Shown: in pieces, positions 706-20,393 of the stretch
How the letters are laid out: every line of letters starts with the position of its first letter
Numbering within the stretch: position 1 is the first letter of the stretch
From: a virus
DNA: 64,000 bases
Direction: 5' to 3' (one strand)
IMG/VR virus record: IMGVR_UViG_3300035670_011573
Coordinates: 1-64,000 of that record
Position numbers and translations under genes: made by a program
The notes under the pieces: generated by a model
Database searches by the model: none
The model's input: the letters and a program-made list of their open reading frames with translations, nothing else
What the model was told of the DNA's origin: nothing

Positions 706-2118
706 CTAGCGTCTTCGCTTATCAATAATCGAAGTTCTAGCGGTAGTGCCTTGAAGTTTATTAAAGCCAGAATTCTTGTTTTTAATCTTTCTCTCAATCT
801 CGTCTTTAACAGAGCTAACCTTATCTTCACCAAGGTCGAGAGTCATTGCATTAGCCCTTCCCTTTTCCTTGTCAGCAAGCACTGCAGCTTGTGCTTTACT
901 TTCTTTCTTTAGATTTTCAATACGATCTTGTGGCAGACCCAATCCCGCAAACCAACTATAAATTTTAATGCTATCATTATCCATATCATCTATAGCATAG
1001 ATACCCTGGAAGATGTTGGCACCATTAGTGGATTCTGAAATCATGGAAAAGCAATAATCAATATTGATGGCTGGAAGTTTGCTTAGTGCCTCCTGAGAAC
1101 CTAAGATGATTACGCCACCAGTTCTTGTCTGTGTTAGATCAAAACCTTCTGCAAGCATATTGCTGCTTAGACTCTTCATTACAGATTCTGCTAGTGCTGT
1201 TTCTTCTAGATAATCCTCTACCTCTACCATGCCGTAAACTGAGCAATCACCACAAGAAATAATCTTTCCAAAGTCACTTGGGTCTAATGAAGTAAATTGT
1301 GATGGCTGTGAAGTTAGGGTATTAAAAATATTGATTGGTTCCACAATTGCGGAGTTGGCTGTAGACCAAAACTGGGCTTGACTTAAACCACCATAAATTT
1401 GCTCAATTCTAGCATTATCTACCACAACTAGTGATGATATTACATTTGTAGAAGTTAGTTTGGCTAATCTAGCTAGGGTTTCAATAGAATTTTTCTTGGA
1501 CTGAGCATCTTCTGTGGCTTTAGGAAGAACATAAATAACGCCAATAGGCATACCTAGGCTAAATAGTAGTGGAACCATAGTATCAACAGAAGAAGAACCA
1601 GTTCCGCCACCACCTGAGATGGCTAGGTACATCATATCATTACCATCTGCGATGGCTTCAACAAACTCCGTTAGTTGTTCTGTACTTTGTTCAAAAATTT
1701 GTCTTCCTAAATCTAGATCCTTTCCAGTTCCGCCAAGACTTCCTTCCAGAAGCAGCTTTTGATTTGGGGCAACATTAATGTAAGCTAAGTCTTGAGCCGA
1801 GGTATTAACCACGCCTGCGTCATAGCCTAGCCTATGAAATTCTTCTGCAATTCTAGAGCCGGCCTGACCTACACCAATAACACCCATATTAATGCTAACT
1901 GTTCTTTTGGAAACTACTTCTGGCATAACATCACCTTCCACTTTGTTTTTTTCAGCAAGTTTAGCTTTAAGAGCTGCTAGTTTTTCTGGATCCACTTTCC
2001 TCTCCACTTTTTGTTCTGAAAATGCTGCTAAAAGTTTGTCGTTTTCTTCTGATATTTCTTCTGAAGATTTATTTTTAAATGCTGCATCATTTTCTTTAAC
2101 TATTACTTTTTCTGACAT
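706..2118 (-). CDS. Tubulin/FtsZ-superfamily GTPase
   Basis: A 470 aa cytoskeletal GTPase. The glycine loop GVGQAGS (residues 82-88) and the tubulin signature GGGGTGS (169-175) are both intact, followed by PIGVIYVLPK, the strand after T4 in FtsZ/TubZ folds. Residues 1-72 form a Lys/Glu-rich, probably helical or disordered extension absent from ordinary FtsZ. The last 50 residues are also charged and end in DKRRR, as in a filament tail. Phage relatives (PhuZ, TubZ) form filaments that centre the phage nucleus, move capsids or segregate DNA; whether this one does so is inference. The reading frame overlaps the upstream glycosyltransferase by 23 bases. It is not a bacterial FtsZ: there is no usual FtsZ C-terminal peptide, and the context is viral. 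Confidence 0.85.
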   Translation of the reverse strand: MSEKVIVKENDAAFKNKSSEEISEENDKLLAAFSEQKVERKVDPEKLAALKAKLAEKNKVEGDVMPEVVSKRTVSINMGVIGVGQAGSRIAEEFHRLGYDAGVVNTSAQDLAYINVAPNQKLLLEGSLGGTGKDLDLGRQIFEQSTEQLTEFVEAIADGNDMMYLAISGGGGTGSSSVDTMVPLLFSLGMPIGVIYVLPKATEDAQSKKNSIETLARLAKLTSTNVISSLVVVDNARIEQIYGGLSQAQFWSTANSAIVEPINIFNTLTSQPSQFTSLDPSDFGKIISCGDCSVYGMVEVEDYLEETALAESVMKSLSSNMLAEGFDLTQTRTGGVIILGSQEALSKLPAINIDYCFSMISESTNGANIFQGIYAIDDMDNDSIKIYSWFAGLGLPQDRIENLKKESKAQAAVLADKEKGRANAMTLDLGEDKVSSVKDEIERKIKNKNSGFNKLQGTTARTSIIDKRRR

Positions 2119-3118
2119 AATGCTCCTCGTATACTTTTTTCATTTGTTCATAGATTGTTTCACTTGAAACCTTTGCAATAGGGACTAGGGAACCATCCCA
2201 TTCGTAATTAGATACCTTACACAAGTATTTAGTATTAACTGAATTCATGGGGGGATAATCCGTGGTTATAATGTCGCAACCGCTAGCTGCCGCCTCGTAA
2301 AGACTTAAGCCCAAGCCTTCACGGCTAGAAGGTGCTACTACGCAATTAACCATTTTATAAATGGCAGCAATTTCATTTCTATCTAGTATTTGATTAGAAA
2401 CTTTTATGTTATCTACTTTGTTATCAGGATAGTTGCCTGTAATAATTAAATTTACAGGATATTGGTCCTTTGACTCTTGTGAAAGCTTTAAAAAGGCCTG
2501 AACTACTGCTTGTGTATTTTTACTAGAGTAATTATTATTTAAAGAAGCTTGGTGGTAAAAGTAAAATTGATTGGGGTATCCTCGATTATTGCTATTAAAA
2601 AGATCTTCATCTACGTAATTCCAGTTTATCCGTTCTAAGTTTTTATATCCGGCACGATTAAATGTATGCCAAGTATATTCCGTCAAGCACCAAACTTTAT
2701 CAAAGACATTATAACTCATTTTATTGAAATGATGTAGTGGTACCCATTCTAGCATAGGAACATCTACCACTTTAACCTTATTTCTTTTGGCTTCGTTAAT
2801 CCACCCAAGATCTGTCATAGATGTTTCCAAAGAAACAATAAGATTGGTTTTTTGTTTCTCTACCGCATCTTGAACCACCTCATTTTTCTTTAATCCATCT
2901 CTTTTAAATTTAAAAAGGTGTGGTACTGGACCTTTTACCTCTGGATATTCTAGATAATATCTTCCCTGTTTTTTTTCAAAGATTGGCTTAGGGATTAGGG
3001 ATACATTATGTCCTGCCGCCAATAATGTTTTATAGAGGCTTAGACCAAGGTATAATAATCCAGAATCATGACTGTAAGTTTTAATCAGGATATTCTCATA
3101 ATCCTTTAGTTCTAGCAT
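2096..3118 (-). CDS. Glycosyltransferase, GT-B fold (GT4-like)
   Basis: A 340 aa protein whose C-terminal half carries the retaining GT4 nucleotide-sugar signature SREGLGLSLYEAAASG (around residues 258-273), with the E-x7-E spacing that contacts the donor sugar. The N-terminal half has the opening expected of an acceptor-binding Rossmann domain (ILIKTY, LYKTLLAAGHNVSLIPKP). It transfers a sugar from a nucleotide donor, probably to a lipid- or protein-linked glycan; donor and acceptor cannot be read from the sequence. It is the last glycosyltransferase before the tubulin gene. It overlaps the GT2 gene upstream by 23 bases and the tubulin gene downstream by 23 bases, so the three are probably co-translated. 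Confidence 0.8.
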   Translation of the reverse strand: MLELKDYENILIKTYSHDSGLLYLGLSLYKTLLAAGHNVSLIPKPIFEKKQGRYYLEYPEVKGPVPHLFKFKRDGLKKNEVVQDAVEKQKTNLIVSLETSMTDLGWINEAKRNKVKVVDVPMLEWVPLHHFNKMSYNVFDKVWCLTEYTWHTFNRAGYKNLERINWNYVDEDLFNSNNRGYPNQFYFYHQASLNNNYSSKNTQAVVQAFLKLSQESKDQYPVNLIITGNYPDNKVDNIKVSNQILDRNEIAAIYKMVNCVVAPSSREGLGLSLYEAAASGCDIITTDYPPMNSVNTKYLCKVSNYEWDGSLVPIAKVSSETIYEQMKKVYEEHYVRKSNS

Positions 3119-3806
3119 TTATTCTCTCCATAGAATCTTTTTTGATTTCTTCTATATTTGAAAGATGATTTTTTTGTATATCTTCCCGTTGCGTCAGCCT
3201 ATTACTACCACGCACTATTCTGTAAAAATATAAGACTTTATGAATATATTTAATTGGATATAATTCAGATATATGTAGCCAAGTTGCATAATCTTCACCG
3301 ATCCAATACTTTTCATTAAAGCCGCCAATTTCTTTTAAAACATCCCTTCTTACCGTGGTGGAACCTGATGCAACCAAATTAATCTTCATCAAAGATTGGT
3401 GATTAACTTTAATACTCATAGGATAAAATGGTTTCATTAATCTACCGTTGGCAAAAATTTGGTAATTGCCACAGGTCATGCCTATGTCCTTATTCTGTTT
3501 GAACTCTTCAACAGAATAAAAAATTTTATCCTGGTTCATAATGTCATCATCATCTAAGAAGCTTACTAGATCCCCACTCGTATTTTTGATGCCAAAATTT
3601 CTGGCAGCCGCTGGCCCAGAGTTTTGTTCTAGCCTAAGATAGTTAAGTTTTGGGTATTTCTTTTTGACAAAATCTATCTTATTTTCAGAAGCATCATCCA
3701 CAATATTGATGGTGATATTTTTATAACTTTGTGCCAAGCAACTATCTATAGCTTCAAAGATATAAGCGTTTGGATTATGTGTTGGAATAACAATATCTAC
3801 TTTCAT
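3096..3806 (-). CDS. Family 2 glycosyltransferase (GT-A)
   Basis: A 236 aa protein with the complete GT2 pattern: VDIVIPTHNP at the start, IVDDASEN (residues ~36-43), AARNFGIKNTSGDLVSFLDDDD (DxD metal site near residue 90), and GEDYATW (~170), which matches the catalytic-base ED motif. It inverts the linkage on transfer from a nucleotide sugar. The length matches a stand-alone catalytic domain with no membrane segment, so it acts in the cytoplasm. It is the only GT-A enzyme in the cluster. Its start follows directly on the stop of the upstream gene (3807), with no gap. The acceptor is unknown. Confidence 0.88.
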   Translation of the reverse strand: MKVDIVIPTHNPNAYIFEAIDSCLAQSYKNITINIVDDASENKIDFVKKKYPKLNYLRLEQNSGPAAARNFGIKNTSGDLVSFLDDDDIMNQDKIFYSVEEFKQNKDIGMTCGNYQIFANGRLMKPFYPMSIKVNHQSLMKINLVASGSTTVRRDVLKEIGGFNEKYWIGEDYATWLHISELYPIKYIHKVLYFYRIVRGSNRLTQREDIQKNHLSNIEEIKKDSMERINARTKGL

Positions 3807-4724
3807 TTAATTCTCTAGGTATTTCTTTATATAATTTTTTGCCGTATCTGTAAAGTTATTTTTAATAAAGTTAATTGCGCCATTCTTAAGTTGTGTATAA
3901 AGCAAATTATTTTCCATAATTTCAGTGATTGCTTCACAATAGGAACCTATATCACGATTTGTAATAATTCCGGTTTTATAATTCTCACCCAGCAGATAAA
4001 TTTTAGGATGTGTAACAGATGGGAGGCCGCTACACCAGCTTTCGCATAATGCTAATCCCATAGTCTCACTTAAAGAAGTTGAAAAGTATAAGTGACAGTC
4101 TTTTGCTTTACTTACATGTTCTAAATAGTGATATGGTTGTGGATATCCAATAAATTCAAACTCATATCTTTTTAAAATTTTAGAAACTTCTAGTCCAAAG
4201 TTTATATCTTTTACTAAATGATAACTATTACCCTTCCATAAAATTCTTCCATTATCTCTGCCGGATGGTGCCCATAATTCTTGATCTGGTCCTACCATTA
4301 GAACATCGAACTTAGAAATATCTATATTATACTTCTTGGAAAGCAAAAACTTAAGTCTTTCGTTGACAACTAAAATTTTATCATATTTAGCATATTCAAG
4401 AAAGGTTCGCTCTTCGGAAGAGACGCCATCGATCACATTAGGACCAATAATTTTTTGGCCTTGAGCCATATTAATCAGCCTAATAAAATCATTATCTAGC
4501 CCACTCCATTGATGAACTATTTTAGATTTTTTTATACTGTTTGGTGCCTTTTCAGAACTTAGGGGGTTAACACTTTGATCCCAAGATTTTAACTTAGAAA
4601 AAACTTCGACAGTTACTCCTAATGCTCTTAAATCTTTTACAAAGTTAGATAGACAGATGCCGGGGCCATTTGCATAGCGCCCGGCATTACCATAATTAAA
4701 GGTAAGGAAAGTTACATCTGGCAT
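3807..4724 (-). CDS. Glycosyltransferase, GT-B fold (GT4-like)
   Basis: A 305 aa protein opening with VTFLTFNYGNAGRYANGPGICLSNFV, a glycine-rich acceptor-domain loop. The donor-domain signature is SLSETMGLALCESWCSGLP (around residues 213-231). The sequence between them (KILVVNERLKFLL, DVLMVGPDQELW) fits the usual GT-B hinge region. It ends within a few bases of the GT2 gene and begins 4 bases after the thioredoxin stop. Substrate unknown. It may act as a sequential partner of the neighbouring GT2 enzyme. Confidence 0.75.
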   Translation of the reverse strand: MPDVTFLTFNYGNAGRYANGPGICLSNFVKDLRALGVTVEVFSKLKSWDQSVNPLSSEKAPNSIKKSKIVHQWSGLDNDFIRLINMAQGQKIIGPNVIDGVSSEERTFLEYAKYDKILVVNERLKFLLSKKYNIDISKFDVLMVGPDQELWAPSGRDNGRILWKGNSYHLVKDINFGLEVSKILKRYEFEFIGYPQPYHYLEHVSKAKDCHLYFSTSLSETMGLALCESWCSGLPSVTHPKIYLLGENYKTGIITNRDIGSYCEAITEIMENNLLYTQLKNGAINFIKNNFTDTAKNYIKKYLEN

Positions 4725-4728
4725 GTGT

Positions 4729-5058
4729 CTAGAATGTTACACCTGTGTTTTTAATAATAAACTGGTCCAAGCTTTCTTTGTTTTTGAAGCCAGTCATATA
4801 ATCTACTTGTTTTCCATTTCTAAAAGCAATTAGGTGTGGTACGCTAATAATATTATATTTTGCAGCAATCTCTGGGTAGTTTTGAATATTTAATTTGGCA
4901 ATATGAATATCGCCTTCTGATTTTTGTGAAATAAAGTCTAAGTGGTTTGCAAGTGCCTTGCATGGCATACAGAATGTGGCCCAAAAATCTATAATAGAAA
5001 CTTCTTTTGATTTAATAAAGTCTTCAATGGTTTCGGCAGTTAATTCTGTGATGTACAT
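4729..5058 (-). CDS. Thioredoxin-like protein (CMPC active site)
   Basis: A 109 aa single thioredoxin domain. The redox motif is WATFCMPCK (residues ~26-34), so the active site is CMPC rather than the usual CGPC. The downstream IISVPHLIAFRNGKQV contains the conserved cis-Pro before beta-4 (VP, ~75). There is no signal peptide, so it is cytoplasmic. Phage thioredoxins usually supply electrons to ribonucleotide reductase or act as processivity factors. Neither gene is in this window, so its role here is open. A strong GGAGGGAG ribosome site precedes the start. It is in the same run as two acidic small genes and the glycosyltransferases. Confidence 0.88.
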   Translation of the reverse strand: MYITELTAETIEDFIKSKEVSIIDFWATFCMPCKALANHLDFISQKSEGDIHIAKLNIQNYPEIAAKYNIISVPHLIAFRNGKQVDYMTGFKNKESLDQFIIKNTGVTF

Positions 5059-5066
5059 TCTCCCTC

Positions 5067-5442: not shown

Positions 5443-5533
5443 CGTAACTCCTTAGTAGACTTTTGATACTATAACTATTTTTATTGAAATAACGTATAAA
5501 AATTGTATTACCAAGACTTTTGCAAAGGTTATT

Positions 5534-6502
5534 TTACGCAGTATGGTAGTCAAACAAATACATCTCTTTTAATAGATCTTTCCAATTATATTCCGGCTCC
5601 CATCCCAAAGCATTCTTAGCTAAGGATGGGTTACCTAGTAAGTAAGGTACATCTGATGGCCTCATATATCTGGGGTCTTGTTCGTAAACCTGATTGAAAT
5701 CTAAATCGGCTAACTGACAGACATACTCCAGCATTTCCCTAATCGTTGCTCCATCACCTGTTGCAACAACAAAATCCCTTGGGTTCTCCTGTTGCAGCAT
5801 TAAATACATTGCCCTAACAAAATCTTTGCTATGACCCTCATCCCTAAATGGCTCTAAGTTTCCCATTTTAAGTTTGTTTTTTAAGCCCAGTTTAATGGCA
5901 GCAACACCGTGTGTAATTTTTCTAGTTGCAAAATCAAGGCCTCTTCTAGGGCTGCTGTGATTATGCAGGATCCCATTACAAGCATAAAGCCCATATGATT
6001 CCCTGTAGTTTCTAACGGCCCAGTACGCTGCCAATTTGGCCACTGCATAAGGCGACCTAGGGTTAAGGCTGGAAGATTCACTATAACCTTCCTTGGGGCA
6101 GCTTAGACCACCAAACAACTCGCTAGTACTTGCTTGATAGTACCTGGTTGATGGTGAAACTTGCCTAATTGCATCAAGTTGTGTGATTACAGCAGTAGCA
6201 TTAGTTGTAAAAGTTTTAACAGGATTTATAAATGATTGACCTACGTGTGATTCCGCTGCTAAGTTATAAAATTCATGTGGTCGATAATCATAAATAACTC
6301 TGTATATAAAGGTTGGATCGCAAATATCACCATAGATTAATTTAAAGTTTTTATCTTGAAGGCACTTTTTAATATTTGCTGATTCTTGATTGGTGCTACT
6401 CCTGCGTGTTACACCTATAACATTATAGCCTTTGGATAAAAGCAATTCAGCAAGATAAGAACCATCCTGACCACAAACACCGGTAATAATAACATTAAGC
6501 AT
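5534..6502 (-). CDS. gmd: GDP-mannose 4,6-dehydratase
   Basis: A 322 aa short-chain dehydrogenase/reductase that converts GDP-mannose to GDP-4-keto-6-deoxymannose, the precursor of GDP-fucose, GDP-rhamnose or perosamine. The NAD(P) loop is GVCGQDGSYLAELL (residues 8-21), followed by VTRRSS, typical of the GMD clade. STSELFG (~127) provides the catalytic Thr/Ser and Glu region, and YAVAKLAAY (~147) is the YxxxK motif. NHSSPRRG (~180) is the GMD substrate loop, with the usual E replaced by S. It is slightly shorter than bacterial GMD (about 345-370 aa). An AAGGAG site precedes the ATG. No GDP-fucose synthase lies beside it, so the final sugar is unknown; the epimerase gene at 6826 might supply a later step. 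Confidence 0.88.
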   Translation of the reverse strand: MLNVIITGVCGQDGSYLAELLLSKGYNVIGVTRRSSTNQESANIKKCLQDKNFKLIYGDICDPTFIYRVIYDYRPHEFYNLAAESHVGQSFINPVKTFTTNATAVITQLDAIRQVSPSTRYYQASTSELFGGLSCPKEGYSESSSLNPRSPYAVAKLAAYWAVRNYRESYGLYACNGILHNHSSPRRGLDFATRKITHGVAAIKLGLKNKLKMGNLEPFRDEGHSKDFVRAMYLMLQQENPRDFVVATGDGATIREMLEYVCQLADLDFNQVYEQDPRYMRPSDVPYLLGNPSLAKNALGWEPEYNWKDLLKEMYLFDYHTA

Positions 6503-6770
6503 TCTTAGTACGCTCCTTAAATCTTAGGACTTCATTTTTAAAATCTAAATATCTAAGCTTAGATAGCTCTTCCAAGCTATTGATATTAAACAAGATATAA
6601 TCTTTGTCATCCTGGGTGAAGTCTTCAGAAGATAGAAACCACTCTAATCCGTCTGGCTCTTTTAAATATCTAAGCCTTGAGGATATTATGGAAAACTTTA
6701 TCATATCCCGTCTTTCTGTGGGAGATTTTTCTTTTAATTCTGGGAGACTAGATTTTTTAACTATATGCAT
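6495..6770 (-). CDS. Small protein of unknown function in sugar operon
   Basis: About 92 aa from the ATG at 6770-6768. The same frame stays open to a TTG at 6821, which would give 108 aa, and there is another ATG at 6797. I prefer 6770 because the stretch upstream of it forms an inverted repeat, but ribosome sites are weak for all three. The product is hydrophilic and helical (FSIISSRLRYLKEPDGLEWFL, LEELSKLRYLDFKNEVLRF) and not recognised. It overlaps the GDP-mannose dehydratase start by 8 bases, suggesting coupled translation. Confidence 0.55.
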   Translation of the reverse strand: MHIVKKSSLPELKEKSPTERRDMIKFSIISSRLRYLKEPDGLEWFLSSEDFTQDDKDYILFNINSLEELSKLRYLDFKNEVLRFKERTKNA

Positions 6771-6773
6771 GGA

Positions 6774-6809
6774 ACAACACCCTGGCAAACTTACCATACC
6801 GGGTGTTGT
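6774..6809 (-). repeat. Inverted repeat / RNA hairpin after the epimerase gene
   Basis: ACAACACCC (6774-6782) pairs perfectly with GGGTGTTGT (6801-6809), extended inside by GG/CC around one bulged base. It lies 17 bases past the epimerase stop and just upstream of the ATG at 6770. No T-run follows, so it is not a canonical terminator. It may protect the 3' end of the upstream mRNA or hide the next ribosome site. Confidence 0.5.
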
Positions 6810-6825
6810 AAAATAGAACAATAGG

Positions 6826-7761
6826 TTAATCAGTATTTTTAATATACCAGTTAATAGTTTCTTTTAAGCCATCCTCAATATCAACTAGGGGTGTATATCC
6901 AAGTATTTCTTTTGCTTTAGATATATCAGCCTGTGAGCAGGGTACATCGCCTACTCTTTCTTCAAAATGTTTGGGTGGCAAAGCATTCATCATTTTTACT
7001 AGATCATTAATGCTAGTTTTTTTACCGCATCCTACATTGAAAACTTCACCGTTTAATGGTTTGCTATGGTTAGATGCTTTTACAATAAAATCAACAACGT
7101 TGTCTATATAAGTAAAGTCTCTGAAGAAACTTCCATCACCATAAATAATTGGGCTTTTGGAATCTTTTATTGACTGACAGAAGGCTGATATGACGGATGC
7201 GTAAGGTGAATCGCCATATTGATTTGGACCAAATATATTGAAAAATCTCATGCTTACAGTGTCTAAACCATAAAAGTAAGAATACATTTTACAATATTCT
7301 TCTCCAATCATTTTTTGTAAGGCATAAGGACTCTTGGGCGCTAAGGTTATACTTTCTGGTGTTGGCAGTATTTTTGATCCGCCATAAACTGAGCTGGAAG
7401 ATGCAAAAATAACTTTTTTTATATAATACTTTCTTGCAAGATCTAGGATTTTGAGCGTTCCCGTAACGTTTGTATCATTAGTTTCTAGTGGATTCTCTAC
7501 AGAATACGATACTCTTGGGATTGCTGCCAAATGTATAATTTGCTCTATATTTGAATGATTCTTAAAAATTTCATTCATCTTATTATCATCTAAGATGTTT
7601 GCATTATAAAATAAAAAATTATTTTTAATATTATCTATATTTGATTCCCGACCACTTCTAAGATTGTCAACACCAACAACATTCCAGCCAATACCTGCTA
7701 GATGTTTTGATAGATTGCTTCCTATAAATCCTGCCGCACCAGTAATCAAAACAGTTTTCAT
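6826..7761 (-). CDS. NAD-dependent nucleotide-sugar epimerase/dehydratase
   Basis: A 311 aa extended short-chain dehydrogenase. GAAGFIGSNL (residues 8-17) binds NAD, VDNLRSG follows strand 2, FASSSSVYGG (~119-128) carries the catalytic Ser, and YALQK (~146-150) is the YxxxK pair. RFFNIFGPNQ (~174) and GDGSFFRDFTYIDNVVD (~206) are typical of UDP-glucose 4-epimerase and UDP-glucuronate epimerase or decarboxylase relatives. The length is full for the family. The exact substrate cannot be assigned. The UDP-sugar dehydrogenase is directly upstream (18-base gap), so UDP-glucuronate or UDP-galactose derivatives are plausible. Confidence 0.85.
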   Translation of the reverse strand: MKTVLITGAAGFIGSNLSKHLAGIGWNVVGVDNLRSGRESNIDNIKNNFLFYNANILDDNKMNEIFKNHSNIEQIIHLAAIPRVSYSVENPLETNDTNVTGTLKILDLARKYYIKKVIFASSSSVYGGSKILPTPESITLAPKSPYALQKMIGEEYCKMYSYFYGLDTVSMRFFNIFGPNQYGDSPYASVISAFCQSIKDSKSPIIYGDGSFFRDFTYIDNVVDFIVKASNHSKPLNGEVFNVGCGKKTSINDLVKMMNALPPKHFEERVGDVPCSQADISKAKEILGYTPLVDIEDGLKETINWYIKNTD

Positions 7762-7779
7762 AAATATTTTTCCTTTTAA

Positions 7780-8613
7780 TTAATCTTTTCTCATTTTATT
7801 TCTTTCAGAAATACAAGAATCTATGATAGAGTTTGGTGTACCCATTCTTTTCATGAAATGGTTTAAGGCATTAGTATCTTTTGGAAAGCAAGCTCCACCA
7901 TAACTCAACTGCCCATCTAAGCCTATTGTTGTATGCATAGGATTTATCCATCCATTTTTAAGCATCATAGACTTTACAGTAGGATAATCTGCACCAATTC
8001 TCTGGCAAAGTAAATAAAATTCATTAAATACTTGTACTTTAATTGCATAAAAATTATTACAGAATAATTTCATTGCCTCTGATTCTTCTGAATTACATAT
8101 TGATATTTCTGCTTCGGGATATAAATCTTTATATAATTCTGATAAAATATCTGTACTTTGATACTGAGTACTAATCCCCTTTGAATCTTGTGTGGCCACA
8201 AGTCTATGGTGTCCAATTACAATATGCTTTTGACTATCAAAATCTTCAAATGCAGTTCTGGCGGTTAAAAATTCCGGATTGTGACAAATATTTAAGTGGT
8301 AACTTTCTGAAAGTAATTTTGTGGTTCCTGGCTCAACTGTGCTTTTTATAACTACTAAGCCCTGATACCTTCTGTAAGGGTCTCTGGAGTTGGATAAGAA
8401 GCTTAAGTTTTCTTGTAATGCGGATATATTAAAACCATGGCCTTCCACGTATGGTGTTGGTAAGCATAAGAATACAACATCAGTATTTAAAATGGATTCA
8501 ATATTCCCAATACCTTTAAATTTGTCATATACTAAAACTTTTTGACCTTTTAATTCAAAACTTTTTTTAAGTGCGCCGCCGACAAAACCTGCCCCTATTA
8601 GACCAACCTTCAT
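7780..8613 (-). CDS. UDP-glucose/GDP-mannose dehydrogenase family protein, short form
   Basis: 277 aa. The N-terminal Rossmann motif GLIGAGFVGGAL (residues 4-15), KSTVEPGTT (~91-99), NPEFLTARTAFEDF and the catalytic-cysteine motif GGACFPKD (~237-244) are all present. These enzymes oxidise the C6 alcohol of a UDP- or GDP-sugar to the uronic acid with two NAD+. The usual C-terminal UDP-binding domain (about 100 further residues) is missing; the protein ends shortly after the catalytic domain. Short forms occur in phages and may still be active as dimers, or may have another substrate. The ribosome site AGAGG is near the start. The 89-base gap upstream is described separately. Confidence 0.82.
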   Translation of the reverse strand: MKVGLIGAGFVGGALKKSFELKGQKVLVYDKFKGIGNIESILNTDVVFLCLPTPYVEGHGFNISALQENLSFLSNSRDPYRRYQGLVVIKSTVEPGTTKLLSESYHLNICHNPEFLTARTAFEDFDSQKHIVIGHHRLVATQDSKGISTQYQSTDILSELYKDLYPEAEISICNSEESEAMKLFCNNFYAIKVQVFNEFYLLCQRIGADYPTVKSMMLKNGWINPMHTTIGLDGQLSYGGACFPKDTNALNHFMKRMGTPNSIIDSCISERNKMRKD

Positions 8614-9614: not shown

Positions 9615-9616
9615 GA

Positions 9617-11106: not shown

Positions 11107-11128
11107 ATTAAATACTCCTACCTTATAT

Positions 11129-12268: not shown

Positions 12269-12753
12269 TTTTTTACACAATAATAGATTGACTGTTGTGG
12301 TGGTAAAACCAAATCTTTCTTAAGAACTTCTATTTTATAATCATTTATAAATAATTTTTCAAATGAATCAAAACTTTTATTTAGACATGAAAAAATGAAA
12401 TGATTGAAATTTTTTTGTATATATAAGTTGAAACTTTTTTTATCATCTATGTATTCTAATAGTCCAAGAAAAAGTCCTAACCCTGGATCTTCAATATTAG
12501 GCCTATCTATATTTAAATCAACTAAAATTGTTAAATCTGTATGTTTAATACTATCAAACCCAAAATATTTTATATCTTTATTTATAAAGTTAACAATGTT
12601 TGAGTCACCACAACCAAAATCATATAGATATTCTGGATTTACTTCGTTTATTTTTTTTGCTGCCGTCATCATTCTTTCTGACCAATCTAAACCTTTGTTA
12701 GCTGGATAATCCTTAAGTAATTTGCAGCCTTTTTCCGCCCATCTATTTGCCAT
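12265..12753 (-). CDS. Small SAM-dependent methyltransferase-like protein
   Basis: 162 aa. Motif I is YLYDFGCGDSNIVNFI (residues ~41-56), strand 2 ends in YFGFDSI (~64), and there is a second acidic strand, LTILVDLN. The C-terminal half is short for the family and ends in SIYYCVKK, resembling the antiparallel strand pair closing class I folds. It is compact but plausibly complete. It is coupled by ATGA to the glycosyltransferase downstream, so glycan methylation is the natural inference. Target residue and sugar are unknown. Confidence 0.68.
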   Translation of the reverse strand: MANRWAEKGCKLLKDYPANKGLDWSERMMTAAKKINEVNPEYLYDFGCGDSNIVNFINKDIKYFGFDSIKHTDLTILVDLNIDRPNIEDPGLGLFLGLLEYIDDKKSFNLYIQKNFNHFIFSCLNKSFDSFEKLFINDYKIEVLKKDLVLPPQQSIYYCVKK

Positions 12754-12770
12754 TAGACCTCCCTTCTAAA

Positions 12771-13760
12771 TTATGCATCACATATATTTTCAAAAAATAA
12801 TATAACTTCTTCAATTCTTTTTTCATAGGTCCAATTATTAATAATTTCTTTATATAGATTTTCCGAAATATCTTTTCTTAAACTTTTATCATCTTTAATT
12901 TGTATTATTTTTTTTGAAATATTAAAAATATTATCATCAACGATTAATCCATTGAATTTATCAACAACAATATCTCTAGACAAACCAACATGCGTAGTAA
13001 TAACTGGAATAGCGCAGGCTCCAGACTCTAACATCATCATTGGACCACCTTCAGATTTGCTTAGGCAAATAACAGCATCCAGTTTATTATACCATTTATT
13101 TAGTTCTATTCTATCCAGGTCTTTTGCAGCCTTAAGGATAACCCCAGCCATCGTGGCAGATTTACTAACCAATTCAAAATTCTTTATAGGATTATTAAAG
13201 TTTCCAGACCATCCCAGCGTAAATTTTTTATTTTCTACTAAGATATTATTTCTTTTTATACAAAAAATTTCATTATTAATTGCTTGTGATACACGAAATA
13301 TATTTGGATGTAATCCTTTAAAATTTTTAATAATAAAAGAATTACAACAAGCTAATGCTTTTGTACCTTCAAAATATTTTTTGTAGGTAGTTTGCGCACC
13401 TTCATTTACCCATTTTTCATTATTTATACACACACCAACTTTATCTAGAGGAAAATCTGTAGATAATAGCCTACCGTCCCAAATTGCTCTGTGATATAAG
13501 AAAACAATTCCATCATATTTAGAATGATCAAAGATATTTTTTTTTCCATTTTTAGATATAAAATTTTTTTTATATTCTAAAAAGCTTTCCATATTGCTAT
13601 AAACATTTGCATTATTTACTTCTTCATTTTTTACACTACTATATTCTTTAAGATAAAGTATCTCTATATTATACTTTTTAAAGAGAAGTTTTTTCCAATT
13701 TTGAACGGCATCATCATATGCCCACCCCCTTACATCTACAATCAAAAGAATATTTTTCAT
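12771..13760 (-). CDS. Glycosyltransferase, GT-B fold (paralogue B of three)
   Basis: 329 aa. The opening NILLIVDVRGWAYDDAVQNWKKL matches the N-terminal pattern of the genes at 8703 and 14787. The donor domain has FTLGWSGNFNNPIKNFE (~180) and LSKSEGGPMMMLESGACAIPV (around residues 228-248), with the E-x7-E pair intact. The ATG forms a TAATG overlap with the upstream glycosyltransferase stop at 13760, so the two are translationally coupled. Very AT-rich coding sequence, heavy in Asn, Ile and Lys. Substrate unknown. Confidence 0.76.
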   Translation of the reverse strand: MKNILLIVDVRGWAYDDAVQNWKKLLFKKYNIEILYLKEYSSVKNEEVNNANVYSNMESFLEYKKNFISKNGKKNIFDHSKYDGIVFLYHRAIWDGRLLSTDFPLDKVGVCINNEKWVNEGAQTTYKKYFEGTKALACCNSFIIKNFKGLHPNIFRVSQAINNEIFCIKRNNILVENKKFTLGWSGNFNNPIKNFELVSKSATMAGVILKAAKDLDRIELNKWYNKLDAVICLSKSEGGPMMMLESGACAIPVITTHVGLSRDIVVDKFNGLIVDDNIFNISKKIIQIKDDKSLRKDISENLYKEIINNWTYEKRIEEVILFFENICDA

Positions 13761-14794
13761 TAGATAATCTCTTTCATCTTTTCAATAAGCGAATTTTTAT
13801 TTAAAACATTAAAAGCAACCTTATTTTTTAACAAATAAGATATTTTATTTATCCATTCTTTTTTATCATAAACATCATCACATATAAACTCAGATGGGTA
13901 TGATTCATACCACCCGCAATTTCTACTCATTAATATATTTGATCCACATAAAATTGCTTCTTTTATTGTGTTAGGTGAAGCATCATAATAGGAAGTGCAT
14001 AAAATAACTTTTGTATTTTTCATTATCTCAAGAACTTCTCTCTGCGAAGATAGGTCCCTACATTCCATATTTTTAATACCATTAAAAATTGAAGAATTCT
14101 TACCAACCACAATTTTTTTGTTCATATCAAACTTTTTTTCTGACATAATATTTATTGCTAATTCAGAATTTTTAACCTTCCTAGAAAGGTTGGAGCAAAT
14201 AAAGGCCAAATCCCATTTTCTATCTGTGAAATTTTCACCCAGACAAATATCGTTGTTAAATGCCAAAGAAGTGTCTATGGGGTTTGAAAACTTCTTATTT
14301 TCACCATAATTTTTAATTAATAATTTTTTACCTAACCAACTATTTGGAACCACCAAATCAGAAGCCCTGATACAAGCCTCTTCCTGCTTGAATCTAATGA
14401 TATTAAAACCAGATAGATATTTTTGCGCAGAAATTCCATTTTCTGAAGCAGATGACATTTGAGGTGACCCAGTTACCAAATACACTATTTTTACATTAGG
14501 AAATAATTCTTTAGAAATAACAGGTGCTGCATAATTTTTTCCAAAAATGACATCTGGTAATCCGCCCAACTGCCTAGTTATTAGCCTATTTAAAATACTC
14601 TTCTTATCCTTACCTGGATCAAACTTCCAGACACCACCAATTTTATCAGGATCTACATTTACCCTGCTAGATTCAAAAAATACTCCTGCAACCATATGGC
14701 CAAAACTTCTAAGATATTTTATTAAGGCATAGCTGTTGGTTGCTGCACCGCCATAATAAGGATATTGTGTACTTGTTATAAGAATTCTAGCCAT
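13760..14794 (-). CDS. Glycosyltransferase, GT-B fold
   Basis: 344 aa. RILITSTQYPYYGGAATNSYALIKYL has the glycine-rich GGAATNS loop found in GT4 acceptor domains, and CTSYYDASPNTIKEAILCGSNIL (around residues 263-285) is the donor site, with DASPNTIKEA replacing the common EGxPxxxLEA. AFICSNLSRKVKNSELAI (~196) is the first strand and helix of the donor domain. It overlaps its upstream neighbour by 8 bases and its downstream neighbour by one base. Substrate unknown. Confidence 0.75.
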   Translation of the reverse strand: MARILITSTQYPYYGGAATNSYALIKYLRSFGHMVAGVFFESSRVNVDPDKIGGVWKFDPGKDKKSILNRLITRQLGGLPDVIFGKNYAAPVISKELFPNVKIVYLVTGSPQMSSASENGISAQKYLSGFNIIRFKQEEACIRASDLVVPNSWLGKKLLIKNYGENKKFSNPIDTSLAFNNDICLGENFTDRKWDLAFICSNLSRKVKNSELAINIMSEKKFDMNKKIVVGKNSSIFNGIKNMECRDLSSQREVLEIMKNTKVILCTSYYDASPNTIKEAILCGSNILMSRNCGWYESYPSEFICDDVYDKKEWINKISYLLKNKVAFNVLNKNSLIEKMKEII

Positions 14795-15665
14795 AACTAA
14801 TACCTAAAAATGGTTGAAATCCTTTTGATCTAGTCTTCCAAGACCACTCTTTATATATATGTTCTTTAATAATTTTTCCATACTTAGATATCAAGGCAGG
14901 ATTATTTTTATGAAATTGAATGGACTTTTTAAGTTCTTCCTTTTTAGATGCAGATGTAATTGCTCCACATTTTTTAATCTGAATTACATTCCCTACGTTG
15001 GTAGATATAATAGACCTTCCACAAGCACCTGCTTCCAAAATAGGGTTAGGCGTACCCTCTGATTCGCTAAAACAAATTAAGGTACCAATAGAATTATAAA
15101 AGTCTAACATCTGCTTAGCGTTTAAATTATCAGACTGAAAAGCAGTTTTAAGTTGATAATCTGGACCTAAGGTTTTGAAGATATCATTTATTATATCGAA
15201 TCTTTTCACTGCCCTCTTGTGATTGCCTACCCAACCAAAAACACTGCTATATTTAGAAGGTTCCGTTGTACTGTAAAAATTTTCTGTGTTGACACCGAAA
15301 GGAGTATTGTAAACCTTCTTAGGATAAGCAGGCCTAAACTCACTAAACAACAAATTACTAGAGGTACTAATAGCATCGTAATTATTTAAAACACTAGATA
15401 TGCTTAGCGGTCCATTACGACCAACATGGCTAGATATTGTTGTTACCAAACGATAGTTACGCCTAGCAGATATTTTTTCACGAATATAAGTATGGATAGG
15501 CCAATTCAAAGAATAAACTAGATCAAAATTATTAAAGTTTAAATCATTAACATCTCTAAAGTGCTTTATCAAAATATCATGTTTTGAGAAGTATTGTTTA
15601 AGATTAGCTGCCCTATTAGCCAACGCCCAGGTATAACTATCCACAATAAACAATGCTCTAGCCAT
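14787..15665 (-). CDS. Glycosyltransferase, GT-B fold (paralogue C of three)
   Basis: About 292 aa from the ATG at 15665, which forms a TAATG overlap with the upstream stop. An ATG nine codons earlier (15692) is in frame but would add residues before the first beta strand. It begins RALFIVDSYTWALANRAANLKQY, aligning by eye with the genes at 8703 and 12771. The donor-domain opening is VFGWVGNHKRAVKRFD (~150), and the signature is FSESEGTPNPILEAGACGRS (around residues 200-219). It is less AT-rich than its paralogues. Substrate unknown. Confidence 0.77.
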   Translation of the reverse strand: MARALFIVDSYTWALANRAANLKQYFSKHDILIKHFRDVNDLNFNNFDLVYSLNWPIHTYIREKISARRNYRLVTTISSHVGRNGPLSISSVLNNYDAISTSSNLLFSEFRPAYPKKVYNTPFGVNTENFYSTTEPSKYSSVFGWVGNHKRAVKRFDIINDIFKTLGPDYQLKTAFQSDNLNAKQMLDFYNSIGTLICFSESEGTPNPILEAGACGRSIISTNVGNVIQIKKCGAITSASKKEELKKSIQFHKNNPALISKYGKIIKEHIYKEWSWKTRSKGFQPFLGISYG

Positions 15666-16582
15666 TAAATCATTCCAAAGATCTGATTCCATTTTAAAAG
15701 ATAATCTTTTATATGAAATTTTTCAATAGCAATTTGACGTGATGATAAGCTGTAATCTTTTTGCATATTTTCATTATTAATCAGCATTTTTAACCCAGTC
15801 AACAGCTCATCTTTATTATTTGATAGAATGGCAGTCTTACCATTTTTAAAGTACAAGTCTATATCAAAATTATTAGTTGATACCAATGGCATTCCGCACA
15901 TCACTGCTTCGGCACGACTTCTAGGCATTGCAGATGATTGTGTTGGGTTAAAATAAACATTGTATTTATTATATATTCTTACAAGAGCTTCCAAACTTTC
16001 TGCCACATTATCATTTCTGTTGATGTCCGTATTTCCATGGCCCACCAAATCTATAAGCCCTAATTCATCGCTGATGCCTTTCCATAAATTATATCCCATA
16101 ATTTGGGAACGCTTCTTGAAAACATTGGCAACAGTTAGGATACGATTATTTTTTTCTAAGTCTATCTTTTTAAATTCTTCAGGATCAAAACCATGAACAA
16201 TATGATAGTGATTCATTTTAGGATAGCGATGCCTGTTAGAATTTAAAACCGACAAGCAGTTCCAAACTACATGCCTACATTCTCTTGGAAATGGAAATGC
16301 ATTAGTGGTTTGTACTACTGCAATAGGTTTCGCACCACGCCTAATAACATTTGTATATTTTATAGGTAGAATCGGGGAACGAATTATCACCGCATCAAAA
16401 TTAATCTTGCTAATTTCTTTTTCATAAATTAAATTAACATTACTATTTAATGGCCTGTGCATCCCATTCCAGTTTGGCTTACCACCATCAATACCCACTA
16501 GATAAAAATCATGACCAGTTTTAAAAAACTCATATTGATGACCTTGGTGACAATACCAGTCTAAAATCTTTAGTTTTTTCAT
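15665..16582 (-). CDS. Glycosyltransferase, GT-B fold
   Basis: 305 aa. The N-terminal domain begins LKILDWYCHQGHQYEFFKTGHDF, a form seen in glycosyltransferases of phage and marine bacterial clusters. ILTVANVFKKRSQIMG (~142) opens the donor domain, and NPTQSSAMPRSRAEAVMCGMPLVST (around residues 208-232) is the donor site, with Arg-Ala-Glu-Ala in place of the LEA motif. It shares an ATGA overlap with the gene upstream and a TAATG overlap with the gene downstream. Substrate unknown. Confidence 0.75.
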   Translation of the reverse strand: MKKLKILDWYCHQGHQYEFFKTGHDFYLVGIDGGKPNWNGMHRPLNSNVNLIYEKEISKINFDAVIIRSPILPIKYTNVIRRGAKPIAVVQTTNAFPFPRECRHVVWNCLSVLNSNRHRYPKMNHYHIVHGFDPEEFKKIDLEKNNRILTVANVFKKRSQIMGYNLWKGISDELGLIDLVGHGNTDINRNDNVAESLEALVRIYNKYNVYFNPTQSSAMPRSRAEAVMCGMPLVSTNNFDIDLYFKNGKTAILSNNKDELLTGLKMLINNENMQKDYSLSSRQIAIEKFHIKDYLLKWNQIFGMI

Positions 16583-17670
16583 TTGAAATCCGAAAGCTCT
16601 CTAGAGATAATTTTAGATACAGATTCAATATCAAAGCTTTTTCCAATCTCCCTAGCTTTTTCAGCTTTATGTCCATACTTATCATGATTCTCGTAAACAT
16701 CTCTAAATAACTTCATAAGATGGTTAACATCTGGATAGGCCCAATTTTGATAAGAACCATAAAGCTGGCACCAATCCATATCCACCACTGGCCCAAGAGA
16801 ATGATTTATAATGTGTGCAGACTGATCAGATAGCCATTCTGTAACACCACCATACCTTGTAACAATTATTTGCTTCTTGCTTAGCATTGCATCATGAATT
16901 GGCATTCCCCAACCTTCACCATGATGTGAGCTAACAAAGCAGTCACCTATATTATGGAGGGCTCTAATTTCTTCTGTTTTTATAATATCTCTCATCAAAT
17001 AAATTGGAGGATAATATTTTTGATTAAGCTTTCTTTTTATCTCTAAAATATCTTGCTTAATTCCCTCATAATTGGAGCCTTTTATATTAAGTGGGTTTAC
17101 TTTTAAAAGTAGAATAACCTTGTCACCCTCTTTGAAGGTCTTGTAATAAGCATTGAGTAAGGTTTTGTATCCCTTTCTATTCTGCCACTGAAAAATAGAA
17201 TAAAATTTATAAACATCATTACTAACGGTATATCCGTCTGATAAGTTTGATGGGATTACAGCTCTTTTTTCTGTATAGAAATCTTCTGATGGCGTTGGAA
17301 CGACTTTTATTTTTCCCCTAAAGCCAGCACGTTGGCAAGCCTCTTTGGTTAGATTACATGGTGCCCAAATTTCATTTAAATAACCTAAACTGCTAGCCCA
17401 AAACCTTGGTAATCTATCTGCTTCCCAATAAAAATAACCAATTTTATAACTTTTGGACTTGTGACGATTGTAAGGTGGGCAGTGTAAGTAAAAATCTACA
17501 TTTGTTATAGAGTCATAGTTATTTAAAGAATCTAATAACCCAGAGGTTCCACTTCCATTTAAAACAAACTTAGTTCTAATTCCTGACATAGAAAATGCTT
17601 TAGTAAAATTAATTACTGCATTTCCATATCCAGTATGTGTATTGGCAGGACCAAAAAACCTAACTGGCAT
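16579..17670 (-). CDS. Glycosyltransferase, GT-B fold
   Basis: 363 aa. VRFFGPANTHTGYGNAVINF carries the GxGN acceptor loop. The middle includes KIGYFYWEADRLPRFW and LNEIWAPCNLTKEACQRAG, a pattern common in family-4 enzymes of O-antigen clusters. FYSIFQWQNRKGYKTLL (~152) starts the donor domain, and SHHGEGWGMPIHDAMLSKKQIIV (around residues 241-263) is the donor site, with Asp where the second Glu is usual. It abuts the large glycosyltransferase upstream without a gap. Substrate unknown. Confidence 0.8.
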   Translation of the reverse strand: MPVRFFGPANTHTGYGNAVINFTKAFSMSGIRTKFVLNGSGTSGLLDSLNNYDSITNVDFYLHCPPYNRHKSKSYKIGYFYWEADRLPRFWASSLGYLNEIWAPCNLTKEACQRAGFRGKIKVVPTPSEDFYTEKRAVIPSNLSDGYTVSNDVYKFYSIFQWQNRKGYKTLLNAYYKTFKEGDKVILLLKVNPLNIKGSNYEGIKQDILEIKRKLNQKYYPPIYLMRDIIKTEEIRALHNIGDCFVSSHHGEGWGMPIHDAMLSKKQIIVTRYGGVTEWLSDQSAHIINHSLGPVVDMDWCQLYGSYQNWAYPDVNHLMKLFRDVYENHDKYGHKAEKAREIGKSFDIESVSKIISRELSDFK

Positions 17671-19278
17671 TTAGATATACTCACCCTTTAAAACAACAAC
17701 ATTTCTTTCCGCCTCTTGTTTTTTAAAGAAGCTCTGTACTTCAAAAACTGTATTAACAAATTTTTGGCTATTAACAACAGCATTATGATTATCACTTACA
17801 AATTGCATTGCTGCGCCAATCACTTCTAAATTACCTATATTTTCTTTGATAACATTAGATGCTGCTTCTACATCTGAATCAATCTTAAAACCAGTAACAC
17901 CATCCTCTATTAGGGATGGAATCGATCCGACCATATTAGAAAAGACTGGGACACCGGAAGACATTGCTTCTATAATTGAAATGGGTGTCCCCTCCATATT
18001 GGAAGCCAAGACAAATCCATCAAAAATATTATAATATTCCTCTGGATTATTTACATGTCCTGCAAAAATAACATTTTTAATATTGTCGTTATTAACTGCC
18101 GAAATTAAATTATGTTTTTCTGGCCCATCACCCACTATGACAAAATAGCAGTCCTTCATTACTTTGGCTAAAGATATAATATAGTTAAGGTTCTTTTCTT
18201 TGGATAATCTGGCTACAGTTCCTAGCACTGTAGCATACTTTGGGATACCCAATTTTTCTCTAAGCTGAAAATTTTCCTTAGGCATAAATCTATCTAGATC
18301 TATACCAACCGGAACTACTTCCCTTAGAAAAGTGCCAGAAATATCGTGGCCTAATAATTTAGAGACAAAGATTACTTTATCTATGTTTTTTCTTTCCTTC
18401 TTTAAGGATAGAGCGCCAGGCCAAGTAAAATCACTATGATAGATTTCTATCAGCGAGCTAGCCATCTCATTATCTTCTTTCATCTTAACTAAGGTTTCAT
18501 AAATATCTAGTCTGTTATAGTAAACTATAAAATCATAATAATTACTTCTAAGTACACCAGGTAATTGGTCCAGACTTTTTACAACTTTATGTACAACGCT
18601 GGGCCTGGTTATTTTTTTCTGTAATATATTTTCATTTAAATAAAGAATTGTGATTTGATATTGTTCTGGAATTCTATTGATAATACTCTCTAAATAGACT
18701 TCTGCACCGCCATAAATATGATAGGGAATAATAAATGCAATCTTGTTAAACATCCCATTTTCAGGGGTAGGGATAAAAATCTTTTTTATATCCTTGTAGT
18801 TTACTCTGACTGGTTTAAACACTTTTTCAAGGCCTATACTTCTTACTTCTATATTCTTTTCTGTTGGATGTGCAGCTTTAATTATTCCTGTATCTAAGGT
18901 TTTTTCTTGCTGTTCTACATCCACAATTATCCTGCTTAATTCTAGACTCCCGTAAACATTGTTTTCTCTAGATATCTTAATGCTAGACAATCCAAAATTA
19001 AAATTAGATTCGTAAGTGTAAGTTTTTTCGGTTAAGGAATTCCCTTCAAATTGAATTAACTCTTTGAATAAGGATTCTCCTTTTCCTCCGATGATTTCTA
19101 AAAACATTTTCCCATCGCCAGTTCTTTTTTTGCCAATTATTTTAATATTATGCTTACCCTGCCTAATATTAATTGGCTGCATAAAGTTGGCTGATTTAAG
19201 AACTAGGATTGAATCACTTTTGATATCTAAACCTCTACCTGACCAGCTTTTATTTTTAATAGTATCAAAAATTCTCAT
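17671..19278 (-). CDS. Two-domain glycosyltransferase (beta-rich N-terminal domain plus GT4)
   Basis: 535 aa, much longer than its neighbours. Residues 1 to about 145 are beta-rich with alternating hydrophobic strands (INIRQGKHNIKIIGKK, KMFLEIIGGKGESLF, SLELSRIIVDV) and look like a carbohydrate-binding or jelly-roll module. Residues ~165-520 are a canonical GT4 enzyme: YGGAEVYLESII, GTVARLSKEKNLNYII (~341), FVIVGDGPEKH (~363), and SNMEGTPISIIEAMSSGVPV (~419-438). The N-terminal module may hold the growing glycan. Of all enzymes in the cluster this is the one with the most complete GT4 motifs. Substrate unknown. Confidence 0.83.
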   Translation of the reverse strand: MRIFDTIKNKSWSGRGLDIKSDSILVLKSANFMQPINIRQGKHNIKIIGKKRTGDGKMFLEIIGGKGESLFKELIQFEGNSLTEKTYTYESNFNFGLSSIKISRENNVYGSLELSRIIVDVEQQEKTLDTGIIKAAHPTEKNIEVRSIGLEKVFKPVRVNYKDIKKIFIPTPENGMFNKIAFIIPYHIYGGAEVYLESIINRIPEQYQITILYLNENILQKKITRPSVVHKVVKSLDQLPGVLRSNYYDFIVYYNRLDIYETLVKMKEDNEMASSLIEIYHSDFTWPGALSLKKERKNIDKVIFVSKLLGHDISGTFLREVVPVGIDLDRFMPKENFQLREKLGIPKYATVLGTVARLSKEKNLNYIISLAKVMKDCYFVIVGDGPEKHNLISAVNNDNIKNVIFAGHVNNPEEYYNIFDGFVLASNMEGTPISIIEAMSSGVPVFSNMVGSIPSLIEDGVTGFKIDSDVEAASNVIKENIGNLEVIGAAMQFVSDNHNAVVNSQKFVNTVFEVQSFFKKQEAERNVVVLKGEYI

Positions 19279-19286
19279 CTTTAAAC

Positions 19287-20393
19287 CTATTTGTAAAGAT
19301 CTGTAATTTTAGTGGCTGCACTTTCCCAAGTGAATTTTTGACAAGTATTTTTGGCTTCTTCTGCAAACTTTTGCTTAAGCAAAAGACTATTTCTATAAGC
19401 CATCAACATAGACTCAATAATCAACTCTTTCTTGGGGATAAATGTTTTTGCACCAGGAGACGCAATCCAATATTGGTATTTGGAACCAGCATCAATAGAC
19501 TCTACATCCATTAGTAATGAATTTTGATTATTTAAAAAGTCTAACTGCCCAGAGCATCTTGGCGCTATGACTAAATTACCTGCAGCCAACCCCTCTAATA
19601 GAGGCAATCCAAACCCTTCAGATGATGACGTGCTAATTAATGCATCGCAGGCCTTATAAAGTGGAATCATACTGGGAAGGTTTTGCTGTATGATTTCAAT
19701 TCTAGGTAAACCTCCTGGACGGTCTTTATGCTTAGCTTGCAGAAGCTTTATAGCATTTCTAACGTCTATTTCAAAGTTATATGGCTTTCTATCCTTTGGC
19801 ATATCTAAGCTTGTTTTTAATACCAGGCATACATCATCCTTATCAGAGAAGGTGGTGTAGTATGCATCAATTAAAAGGTCTATATTTTTTCTGTAATGTG
19901 GGATAGATATATTTAAAAACTTGAATTTTCTATCAGTTTTAAGCTTAAAGGTTTCTTCCGTAGAAAAATCATCTAAGTTGATGCCGTGAGGAACTACCAC
20001 ACATTTAGATTCTGGCCACCCAGAGTTAACAAAAACCTCTTTTGAGAAATTGCTAGATGGCAAAACAAAATCAACATGCTTAATTGAATCTAACCACATC
20101 TTTGGCATGATTTCTGTTTCGTAATTATAAATTGCCATTTTTAGTTTAGATTTCTTTTTAAATCTAGAATAAAAATTTCTAGGCAACGTGTAGCAAATAT
20201 CAATATCTGGAATTGCAATATCTCGATCAATCCTGGAAAGTAAATCTGGTGGGATAAAGTCTTTGCCATTGATACTTTTCAAGTATAGCTTATGGCCCTT
20301 GCTTTTAAATTGTAATAGTAAATTTCTCATAGTAATGGCCCAACTGTGATGGGTTCCCAACATAGATTCGCTTCTAATATTTAATGTAGACAA
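19287..20393 (-). CDS. Glycosyltransferase, GT-B fold; first gene of the glycan cluster
   Basis: 368 aa from a TTG at 20393. An ATG ten codons in (20363) is the alternative, and is favoured if transcription starts just below the TATAAT at 20414-20409, because the TTG would then have almost no leader. GTHHSWAITMRNLLLQF is the acceptor loop and helix. FKFLNISIPHYRKNIDLLI (~160) opens the donor domain, and STSSSEGFGLPLLEGLAAGNLVI (around residues 247-269) is the donor signature. It is the promoter-proximal gene of the run reaching to 2096. Substrate unknown. Confidence 0.8.
   Translation of the reverse strand: MSTLNIRSESMLGTHHSWAITMRNLLLQFKSKGHKLYLKSINGKDFIPPDLLSRIDRDIAIPDIDICYTLPRNFYSRFKKKSKLKMAIYNYETEIMPKMWLDSIKHVDFVLPSSNFSKEVFVNSGWPESKCVVVPHGINLDDFSTEETFKLKTDRKFKFLNISIPHYRKNIDLLIDAYYTTFSDKDDVCLVLKTSLDMPKDRKPYNFEIDVRNAIKLLQAKHKDRPGGLPRIEIIQQNLPSMIPLYKACDALISTSSSEGFGLPLLEGLAAGNLVIAPRCSGQLDFLNNQNSLLMDVESIDAGSKYQYWIASPGAKTFIPKKELIIESMLMAYRNSLLLKQKFAEEAKNTCQKFTWESAATKITDLYK

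Follow-up and report, generated by a model that had tools for sequence, protein, structure and literature searches.

What a virus makes with a large set of sugar-handling genes, and where it puts the product, is a debated question: for big phage glycan clusters, the host surface, the virion, the DNA and plain stuffer DNA have all been considered as answers. The question is raised anew by the window analysed here, which spans positions 1 to 64,000 of a linear virus record of 177,932 bases (IMG/VR IMGVR_UViG_3300035670_011573), and in which an 18.3-kb run of genes (20393-2096), all on the minus strand, encodes 12 glycosyltransferases (GTs) and three nucleotide-sugar enzymes between tail genes and a phage tubulin gene. 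The lineage to which this island belongs offers direct arguments on the matter, namely a core that stays fixed around an interior that is swapped, no sign of export machinery in the searches made, a site behind the tail module, and a natural GT-tubulin fusion in several relatives. On these grounds we give an even chance to the reading that the island is a late-type glycan assembly system whose target would most likely be virion (tail or capsid) proteins.

A conserved core with an exchangeable interior

The 12 GTs comprise 11 of family GT4, recognized by PF00534, PF13692 or PF13524, or by PHROG in the case of 19287-20393, and one of family GT2 (3096-3806), and all 11 PF00534 matches of the 178-kb record fall inside the island (chance under uniform placement, ~1e-9). 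Spacing between neighbours is mostly -28 to +22 bp, the only wider gaps being 89 and 254 bp. Besides these, the run encodes a thioredoxin, a pyruvyltransferase, a supported methyltransferase and a second, possible one, and it contains two small uncharacterized open reading frames (ORFs). Several GTs clustered with nucleotide-sugar enzymes, the hallmark of a phage glycan or lipopolysaccharide (LPS) island, are thus present in the window. The features are as follows, from the tail side to the tubulin (GC, guanine plus cytosine content; SAM, S-adenosylmethionine).

20459..24994 (-): large tail-module protein just upstream of the island, adjoining baseplate genes; syntenic, 46-57% identical in relatives
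19287..20393 (-): GT4, conserved core, first after the tail genes; PF00534, phrog_2170 E=1e-32; 49-61% identity in relatives
17671..19278 (-): GT4 with N-terminal beta-sandwich, conserved core; PF00534 E=4e-28
16579..17670 (-): GT4, conserved core; PF00534; 61% identical in the 395-kb relative
15665..16582 (-): GT4, conserved core; PF00534; in 9/9 loci
14787..15692 (-): GT4, semi-conserved (G003, G011, G012)
13760..14794 (-): GT4-like, interior; PF00534 E=2e-4; 56% identical in G011
12771..13760 (-): GT4, interior, low GC (26.8%); PF00534 E=3e-16
12265..12753 (-): possible SAM methyltransferase, interior; DFGCGDS motif-like sequence by eye, no profile match
11129..12280 (-): GT4-like, interior; PF00534 E=2.5e-5
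10513..11106 (-): SAM methyltransferase, interior; PF13649 E=9e-10
9617..10516 (-): polysaccharide pyruvyltransferase, interior, lowest GC of the run (23%); PF04230 E=1e-15
8703..9614 (-): GT4, interior; PF00534 E=3e-12
7780..8613 (-): short UDP-sugar dehydrogenase, conserved core; PF03721/PF00984, phrog_9148
6826..7761 (-): NAD-dependent nucleotide-sugar 4-epimerase (WbgU/WbpP/TviC-like), conserved core; PF01370 E=5e-60
6495..6821 (-): 108-aa ORF, no family match
5534..6502 (-): GDP-mannose 4,6-dehydratase (Gmd), conserved core; PF16363 E=6e-105
4729..5058 (-): thioredoxin, also in G002 and G011; PF00085 E=7e-22
3807..4724 (-): GT4, conserved core; PF00534; in 9/9 loci
3096..3806 (-): GT2, conserved core; PF00535 E=8e-29; in 8/9 loci
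2096..3118 (-): GT4, conserved core, 23-bp overlap with the tubulin ORF; PF00534 E=9e-12
706..2118 (-): phage tubulin (TubZ/FtsZ superfamily), 3' partner of the island; PF00091 E=1e-12, PF22453

Nine loci were compared (the window, the 395-kb relative G002 and seven further fetched loci), and eleven core genes were scored, ten of them glycan genes (seven GTs, Gmd, the short UDP-sugar dehydrogenase and the 4-epimerase) and the eleventh the tubulin. Each locus contains 10-11 of the eleven. The 395-kb relative reads, in order, tail gene; four GTs; interior; Gmd, dehydrogenase, epimerase; GT, GT2, GT; tubulin, and its flanking and core genes are 40-66% identical to those of the window, whereas its interior differs. 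This holds generally: the locus and the core stay constant throughout the nine, and the interior is polymorphic between related phages and almost wholly replaced from genome to genome, with 8-37 non-core ORFs per locus and island lengths of 19.7-45.3 kb. In the window the interior is also lower in GC than the core (23-31% vs 32-39%). Judged from its genes, this phage locus is laid out as O-antigen and capsule loci are, its two ends conserved and its middle exchangeable.

The interior of G002 encodes NeuB, a CMP-sugar cytidylyltransferase, KdsA-, KdsB- and KdsD-like proteins (names that stand for Pfam superfamily matches and one annotated phage KdsA match), an FkbM methyltransferase, a sulfotransferase and a GT29-like protein. 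Five of these genes lie in a row (L018:5471-9288), NeuB, the cytidylyltransferase and the KdsA/B/D-like set, an apparent donor cassette for CMP-3-deoxy-D-manno-octulosonate (Kdo) and nonulosonate. KdsA and KdsB are also present in cyanophage S-SCSM2R, and NeuB is rare among named phages. Further interiors contribute DegT aminotransferases, a GlmS-like protein, a GT10, a sulfatase and a nucleotidyltransferase; that of G005 encodes a 1128-aa protein that combines PARP and NUDIX domains (L057:5564-8950), beside other large proteins of no assigned role. Amid the core GTs of G002 lies what appears by eye to be a mobile-nuclease-like protein (L018:763-2157, position 60763-62157 of G002), a homologue of which is encoded elsewhere in the window's record (147942-149495).

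Several core enzymes deserve comment. Gmd (60-70% identical in all relatives) scores 342 bits against TIGR01472, under the 415-bit cut-off. In G003 its homologue (L052:3723-5867) is split by an insert that contains LAGLIDADG and appears to be an intein, which points to an enzyme that is active and conserved. The dehydrogenase retains the NAD and central domains and the catalytic Cys (GGACFPKD), and lacks the C-terminal UDP-binding domain, an ending shared by the 395-kb relative; its predicted working therefore resembles that of a UDP-glucose 6-dehydrogenase, without the full set of domains that define the family. The epimerase matches PDB 4zrm, WbgU and WbpP, with TviC as the top NCBIfam match, under cut-off, and is predicted to be a UDP-hexose(-NAc/uronate) 4-epimerase-like enzyme. 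Most GT4 proteins show, by eye, the E-x7-E motif, which is substituted in those starting at 11129, 13760, 15665 and 16579. The GT4 at 16579-17670 recurs at 13 loci at >=42% identity among viral contigs. Residues 1-122 of the GT4 at 17671-19278 form a confident beta-sandwich ahead of the GT-B domain, kept in 9/9 loci: the AlphaFold2 (AF2) model (predicted local distance difference test, pLDDT, 81) has strands at 2-122 and a GT-B fold after them. Foldseek matches it to GT4 enzymes such as BshA, PimB' and HepE, a list that the GT-B part dominates, with no separate fold match for the sandwich, which is possibly a substrate-binding domain. In the neighbouring tail-module protein, the middle portion carries dockerin or EF-hand-like repeats (DLNDDKELTTTDLG, DLNLDGSVDGTD).

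Because the ten-gene glycan core is kept in nine syntenic loci, the island is best read as a maintained system and not a remnant. The same conservation bears on the possibility that it is passenger DNA, serving to fill the head without a selected function, a question raised for cyanophage LPS clusters (PMC3037559). The intact ORFs, the retention of the core across divergent loci, the purifying selection, described below, that acts on both the GT and the tubulin, and the apparent intein in the Gmd of G003 all speak against such stuffing, which we consider very improbable. A silent remnant, too, was rejected on the core conservation and low substitution ratios.

A preliminary description of this DNA had anticipated much of this. 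Pfam and PHROG matches bear out its 12 GTs, three nucleotide-sugar enzymes and pyruvyltransferase, and its co-oriented run is indeed all on the minus strand, with neighbours mostly overlapping or within 22 bp. Of its two methyltransferases, 10513-11106 has a Pfam match, but 12265-12753 is backed by a motif read by eye. It was right to place the run between tail and replication genes as regards the tail/baseplate genes and a helicase fragment, which together with the tubulin forms the downstream flank, but it omitted the tubulin. The comparison of clusters that it had proposed agrees with its view of something more than a serotype-conversion cassette; its capped, methylated glycan fits the genome of the window but not the lineage, as the pyruvyl- and methyltransferase genes belong to the variable interior.

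The tubulin and its glycosyltransferase fusion

The last GT (2096-3118) and the tubulin ORF (706-2118) overlap by 23 bp in the window. The tubulin carries the Pfam Tubulin domain (PF00091) and a TubZ-like C-terminal domain (PF22453), matches PDB TubZ 4ei7 (E=5e-17) and is 62-70% identical to its relatives; the GGGG-G box and the T7-loop residues D279 and D282, which mark the TubZ/FtsZ fold, are invariant, and Foldseek on the AF2 model also matches the TubZ fold. In seven distinct contigs (L040, L041/L049, L042/L046, L043/L044, L045, L047, L048), the GT homologue runs in frame into the tubulin as a single ORF of 801-831 aa, whereas the two are separate in the window, L015/L016, L038, L039 and L050. 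The fused forms constitute one clade, and the tubulin and GT trees each need one change between the fused and separate states (support 100/98 and 95/96). An assembly artefact was rejected, given seven distinct contigs in one clade. No report of a GT-tubulin fusion was found in the open-access literature.

Each fused ORF retains the ATG of the tubulin start behind GAGG or AAGGA at ribosome-binding-site distance, and because of this retained internal start, free tubulin is probably also produced in the fused genomes. The AF2 model of the fusion has a linker of low confidence between two folded domains (mean pLDDT 74.8). Approximate ratios of nonsynonymous to synonymous substitution (dN/dS) are ~0.02-0.03 for the tubulin, 0.10 for the linker and 0.12 for the GT (the sole computable GT pair), values that are rough with saturated dS, and both fused parts appear to be under purifying selection.

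As a class, TubZ/PhuZ-type phage tubulins form filaments that segregate DNA or move capsids. The fusion suggests a coupling between sugar decoration and intracellular virus assembly. In the fused genomes, GT-bearing subunits would make up a fraction of the filament, the rest being free tubulin, and the filament could bring the enzyme to assembling particles. In its strongest form, which we regard as rather unlikely, the tubulin filament would be a glycosylation scaffold on which a minority of GT subunits modifies filament-borne particles or proteins, so that transport and virion glycosylation become one step. A simpler account, which we rate as quite possible if somewhat short of even, is operon compression: the stop between overlapping genes was lost and the loss was tolerated, with no functional meaning. 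The overlap in the window, the internal start from which free tubulin would still be made, and a single origin compatible with one chance event are all in keeping with it, but seven divergent genomes keep the fusion with no stop restored, and GT, linker and tubulin are all constrained. This account covers the fusion only and would fit either a virion or a host-surface target.

The wider tubulin family (80 loci kept; distant members 36-46% identical) indicates how the association may have arisen. There the GT of the island is not adjacent to the tubulin, and sampled genomes have only one or two PF00534 matches each; because ~30 of these loci have one GT4 3-5 kb upstream of the tubulin on the same strand, the island may have grown at an older GT-tubulin neighbourhood. 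Three remoter tubulin phages, G017, G018 and G019 (L083, L084, L086), have 764-789-aa ORFs with two GT4 matches each.

Probable destination of the glycan

Among the three targets named in the preliminary description, virion protein is the best supported and the host surface second, while DNA hypermodification is disfavoured. The search that it had suggested for a flippase and an initiating transferase came back empty: none of PF01943 (flippase), PF02397 (initiating transferase) and PF01061 (ABC permease) occurs in 16 records, while the bacterial controls gave matches; PF00953 and PF04932 were outside the search. The transferase, flippase or exporter that defines a Wzx/Wzy or ABC-dependent polysaccharide locus is accordingly missing, as far as the searched families in these largely fragmentary records go. 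In a hydropathy scan of the nine loci, no island protein has more than two membrane-span-like segments, and in the 178-kb record only a 2049-aa tail-module protein reaches four.

These results bear most directly on host-surface remodelling, in which phage GTs would act at the inner membrane on undecaprenyl- or lipid-A-linked intermediates of the host, the host would export the altered glycan, and the new surface would block superinfection or grazing. This is the standard proposal for the LPS clusters of cyanophages such as P-SSM2 (with 24 LPS genes), of pelagimyophages and of jumbo phages more generally. The Kdo/nonulosonate cassettes, the WbgU/TviC-like epimerase and the pyruvyltransferase are typical of cell-envelope glycans, and a variable interior suits serotype diversification. 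Nevertheless, the family searches and the hydropathy scan yielded neither a multi-span island protein nor an initiating transferase, flippase or ABC exporter, and the link to the tubulin is left unexplained. In addition, the site right after the tail module (first GT 51-65 bp from the upstream tail gene, or overlapping it, in 5/8 loci; 316-1208 bp away in 3/8) suggests late expression, when a new surface would be of little use. We therefore hold a host-surface target to be possible but on the unlikely side.

For DNA hypermodification, in which the GTs would attach an oligosaccharide to modified phage DNA bases, a precedent exists in the GTs of DNA-hypermodifying phages (Pyle et al., 2024, as cited in PMC12619734). 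Yet the thymidylate-synthase-type hydroxymethylase (PF00303) is absent from the 16 records with controls positive, and the number and variety of GTs, together with the pyruvyl, Kdo and nonulosonate genes, go beyond known DNA glycans. A Tet/JBP search gave no match, yet its controls stayed silent too. This is the least probable of the targets, and we give it hardly any weight.

A virion target is favoured because the run follows the tail module, because no export or lipid-initiation machinery was found, because the last GT is physically tied to the tubulin and because the core is maintained. Under this reading, the core would make GDP-6-deoxysugar and UDP-uronate/epimer donors, and the core GTs would build a core oligosaccharide in the cytosol. 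The exchangeable interior would then add genome-specific caps, pyruvyl and methyl groups in the window and Kdo, nonulosonate, amino or sulfo groups in other genomes. The island would be expressed late, with the tail genes, and the glycan would be placed on tail or capsid proteins.

Several points weigh against this reading. The envelope-type sugar genes and the usual literature interpretation favour the host surface, and soluble GTs could use host lipid-linked intermediates that the host itself exports. Most of the 16 searched records are fragments, so that absence from them is evidence, not proof, for complete genomes. The fusion is lacking in 5/12 genomes, the window among them, and is thus dispensable in some; the saturation of dS tempers the selection estimates; and a predicted template-modelling score (pTM) of 0.45 means that the model of the fusion does not fix the relative placement of its domains.

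Genome context and comparison with known systems

Nearly all genes of the 177,932-base record lie on the minus strand. Baseplate wedge matches and a tail sheath match identify the tail genes near the island, and the rest of the record encodes a portal, a large terminase, a DNA polymerase and GroEL. Relatives, searched for with the tubulin and one GT, sit on contigs of 395, 335, 332, 317, 236 and 223 kb, and because these run to 395 kb, the record is probably a jumbo phage fragment. Among named phages, DNA similarity amounts to just short helicase/terminase-like matches, and tblastn with the window tubulin or the pyruvyltransferase gives zero matches. A promoter scan stayed at chance level (104 seen vs 102 expected). 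The GroEL-type chaperonin is encoded at 108278-109933 of the record (L011:4278-5933), and the large terminase ORF at 94407-97262 (L010:10407-13262) has a LAGLIDADG homing-endonuclease-like insert. A GTDB contig in an Actinomycetota metagenome-assembled genome bin (L067, WLOB01000045.1) has the GT and tubulin pair, its tubulin 65% identical; it is probably a phage contig caught in that bin. An Actinomycetota host is not claimed from it, as it may be a host hint or mis-binning.

Phage glycan islands as such are already known; the GT-tubulin overlap and fusion are new here. The precedents, which like the tubulin link had escaped the preliminary description, begin with cyanophages P-SSM2 and S-SSM7, big myoviruses with large glycan-synthesis clusters reported as LPS gene clusters (PMC2984593, PMC3037559). 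In these accounts the LPS genes of P-SSM2 form two clusters, located near hli03 and phoH and also close to tRNAs, whereas the present lineage has one island from tail genes to tubulin, with conserved ends, a variable middle and the tubulin link. The host recognition cluster of pelagimyophages (PMC7029224) is likewise a hypervariable island; it lies in the structural region and encodes several GTs and, among its LPS-type genes, a UDP-glucose 6-dehydrogenase, but there GT8 dominates and tail fibres lie within the island, whereas here GT4 dominates and a ten-gene core is fixed. Moraphages (PMC12619734), a jumbo lineage from aquatic metagenomes, also have GTs in their core genome, and the text of that paper does not mention tubulin.

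Mycobacteriophages provide an established case of the outcome proposed here, phage-encoded glycosylation of the virion (Freeman et al., 2023, as cited in PMC12619734). The gene set of the present lineage is far larger than theirs. Mycobacteriophages with virion glycosylation carry few GTs. Finally, the tubulin resembles TubZ and PhuZ in its fold, with TubZ as the best match and the G-box and T7-loop aspartates invariant, and differs from them in an N-terminal extension, a basic C-terminal tail and, in seven genomes, the N-terminal GT. If functional, this fusion would link a viral cytoskeleton to post-translational modification.

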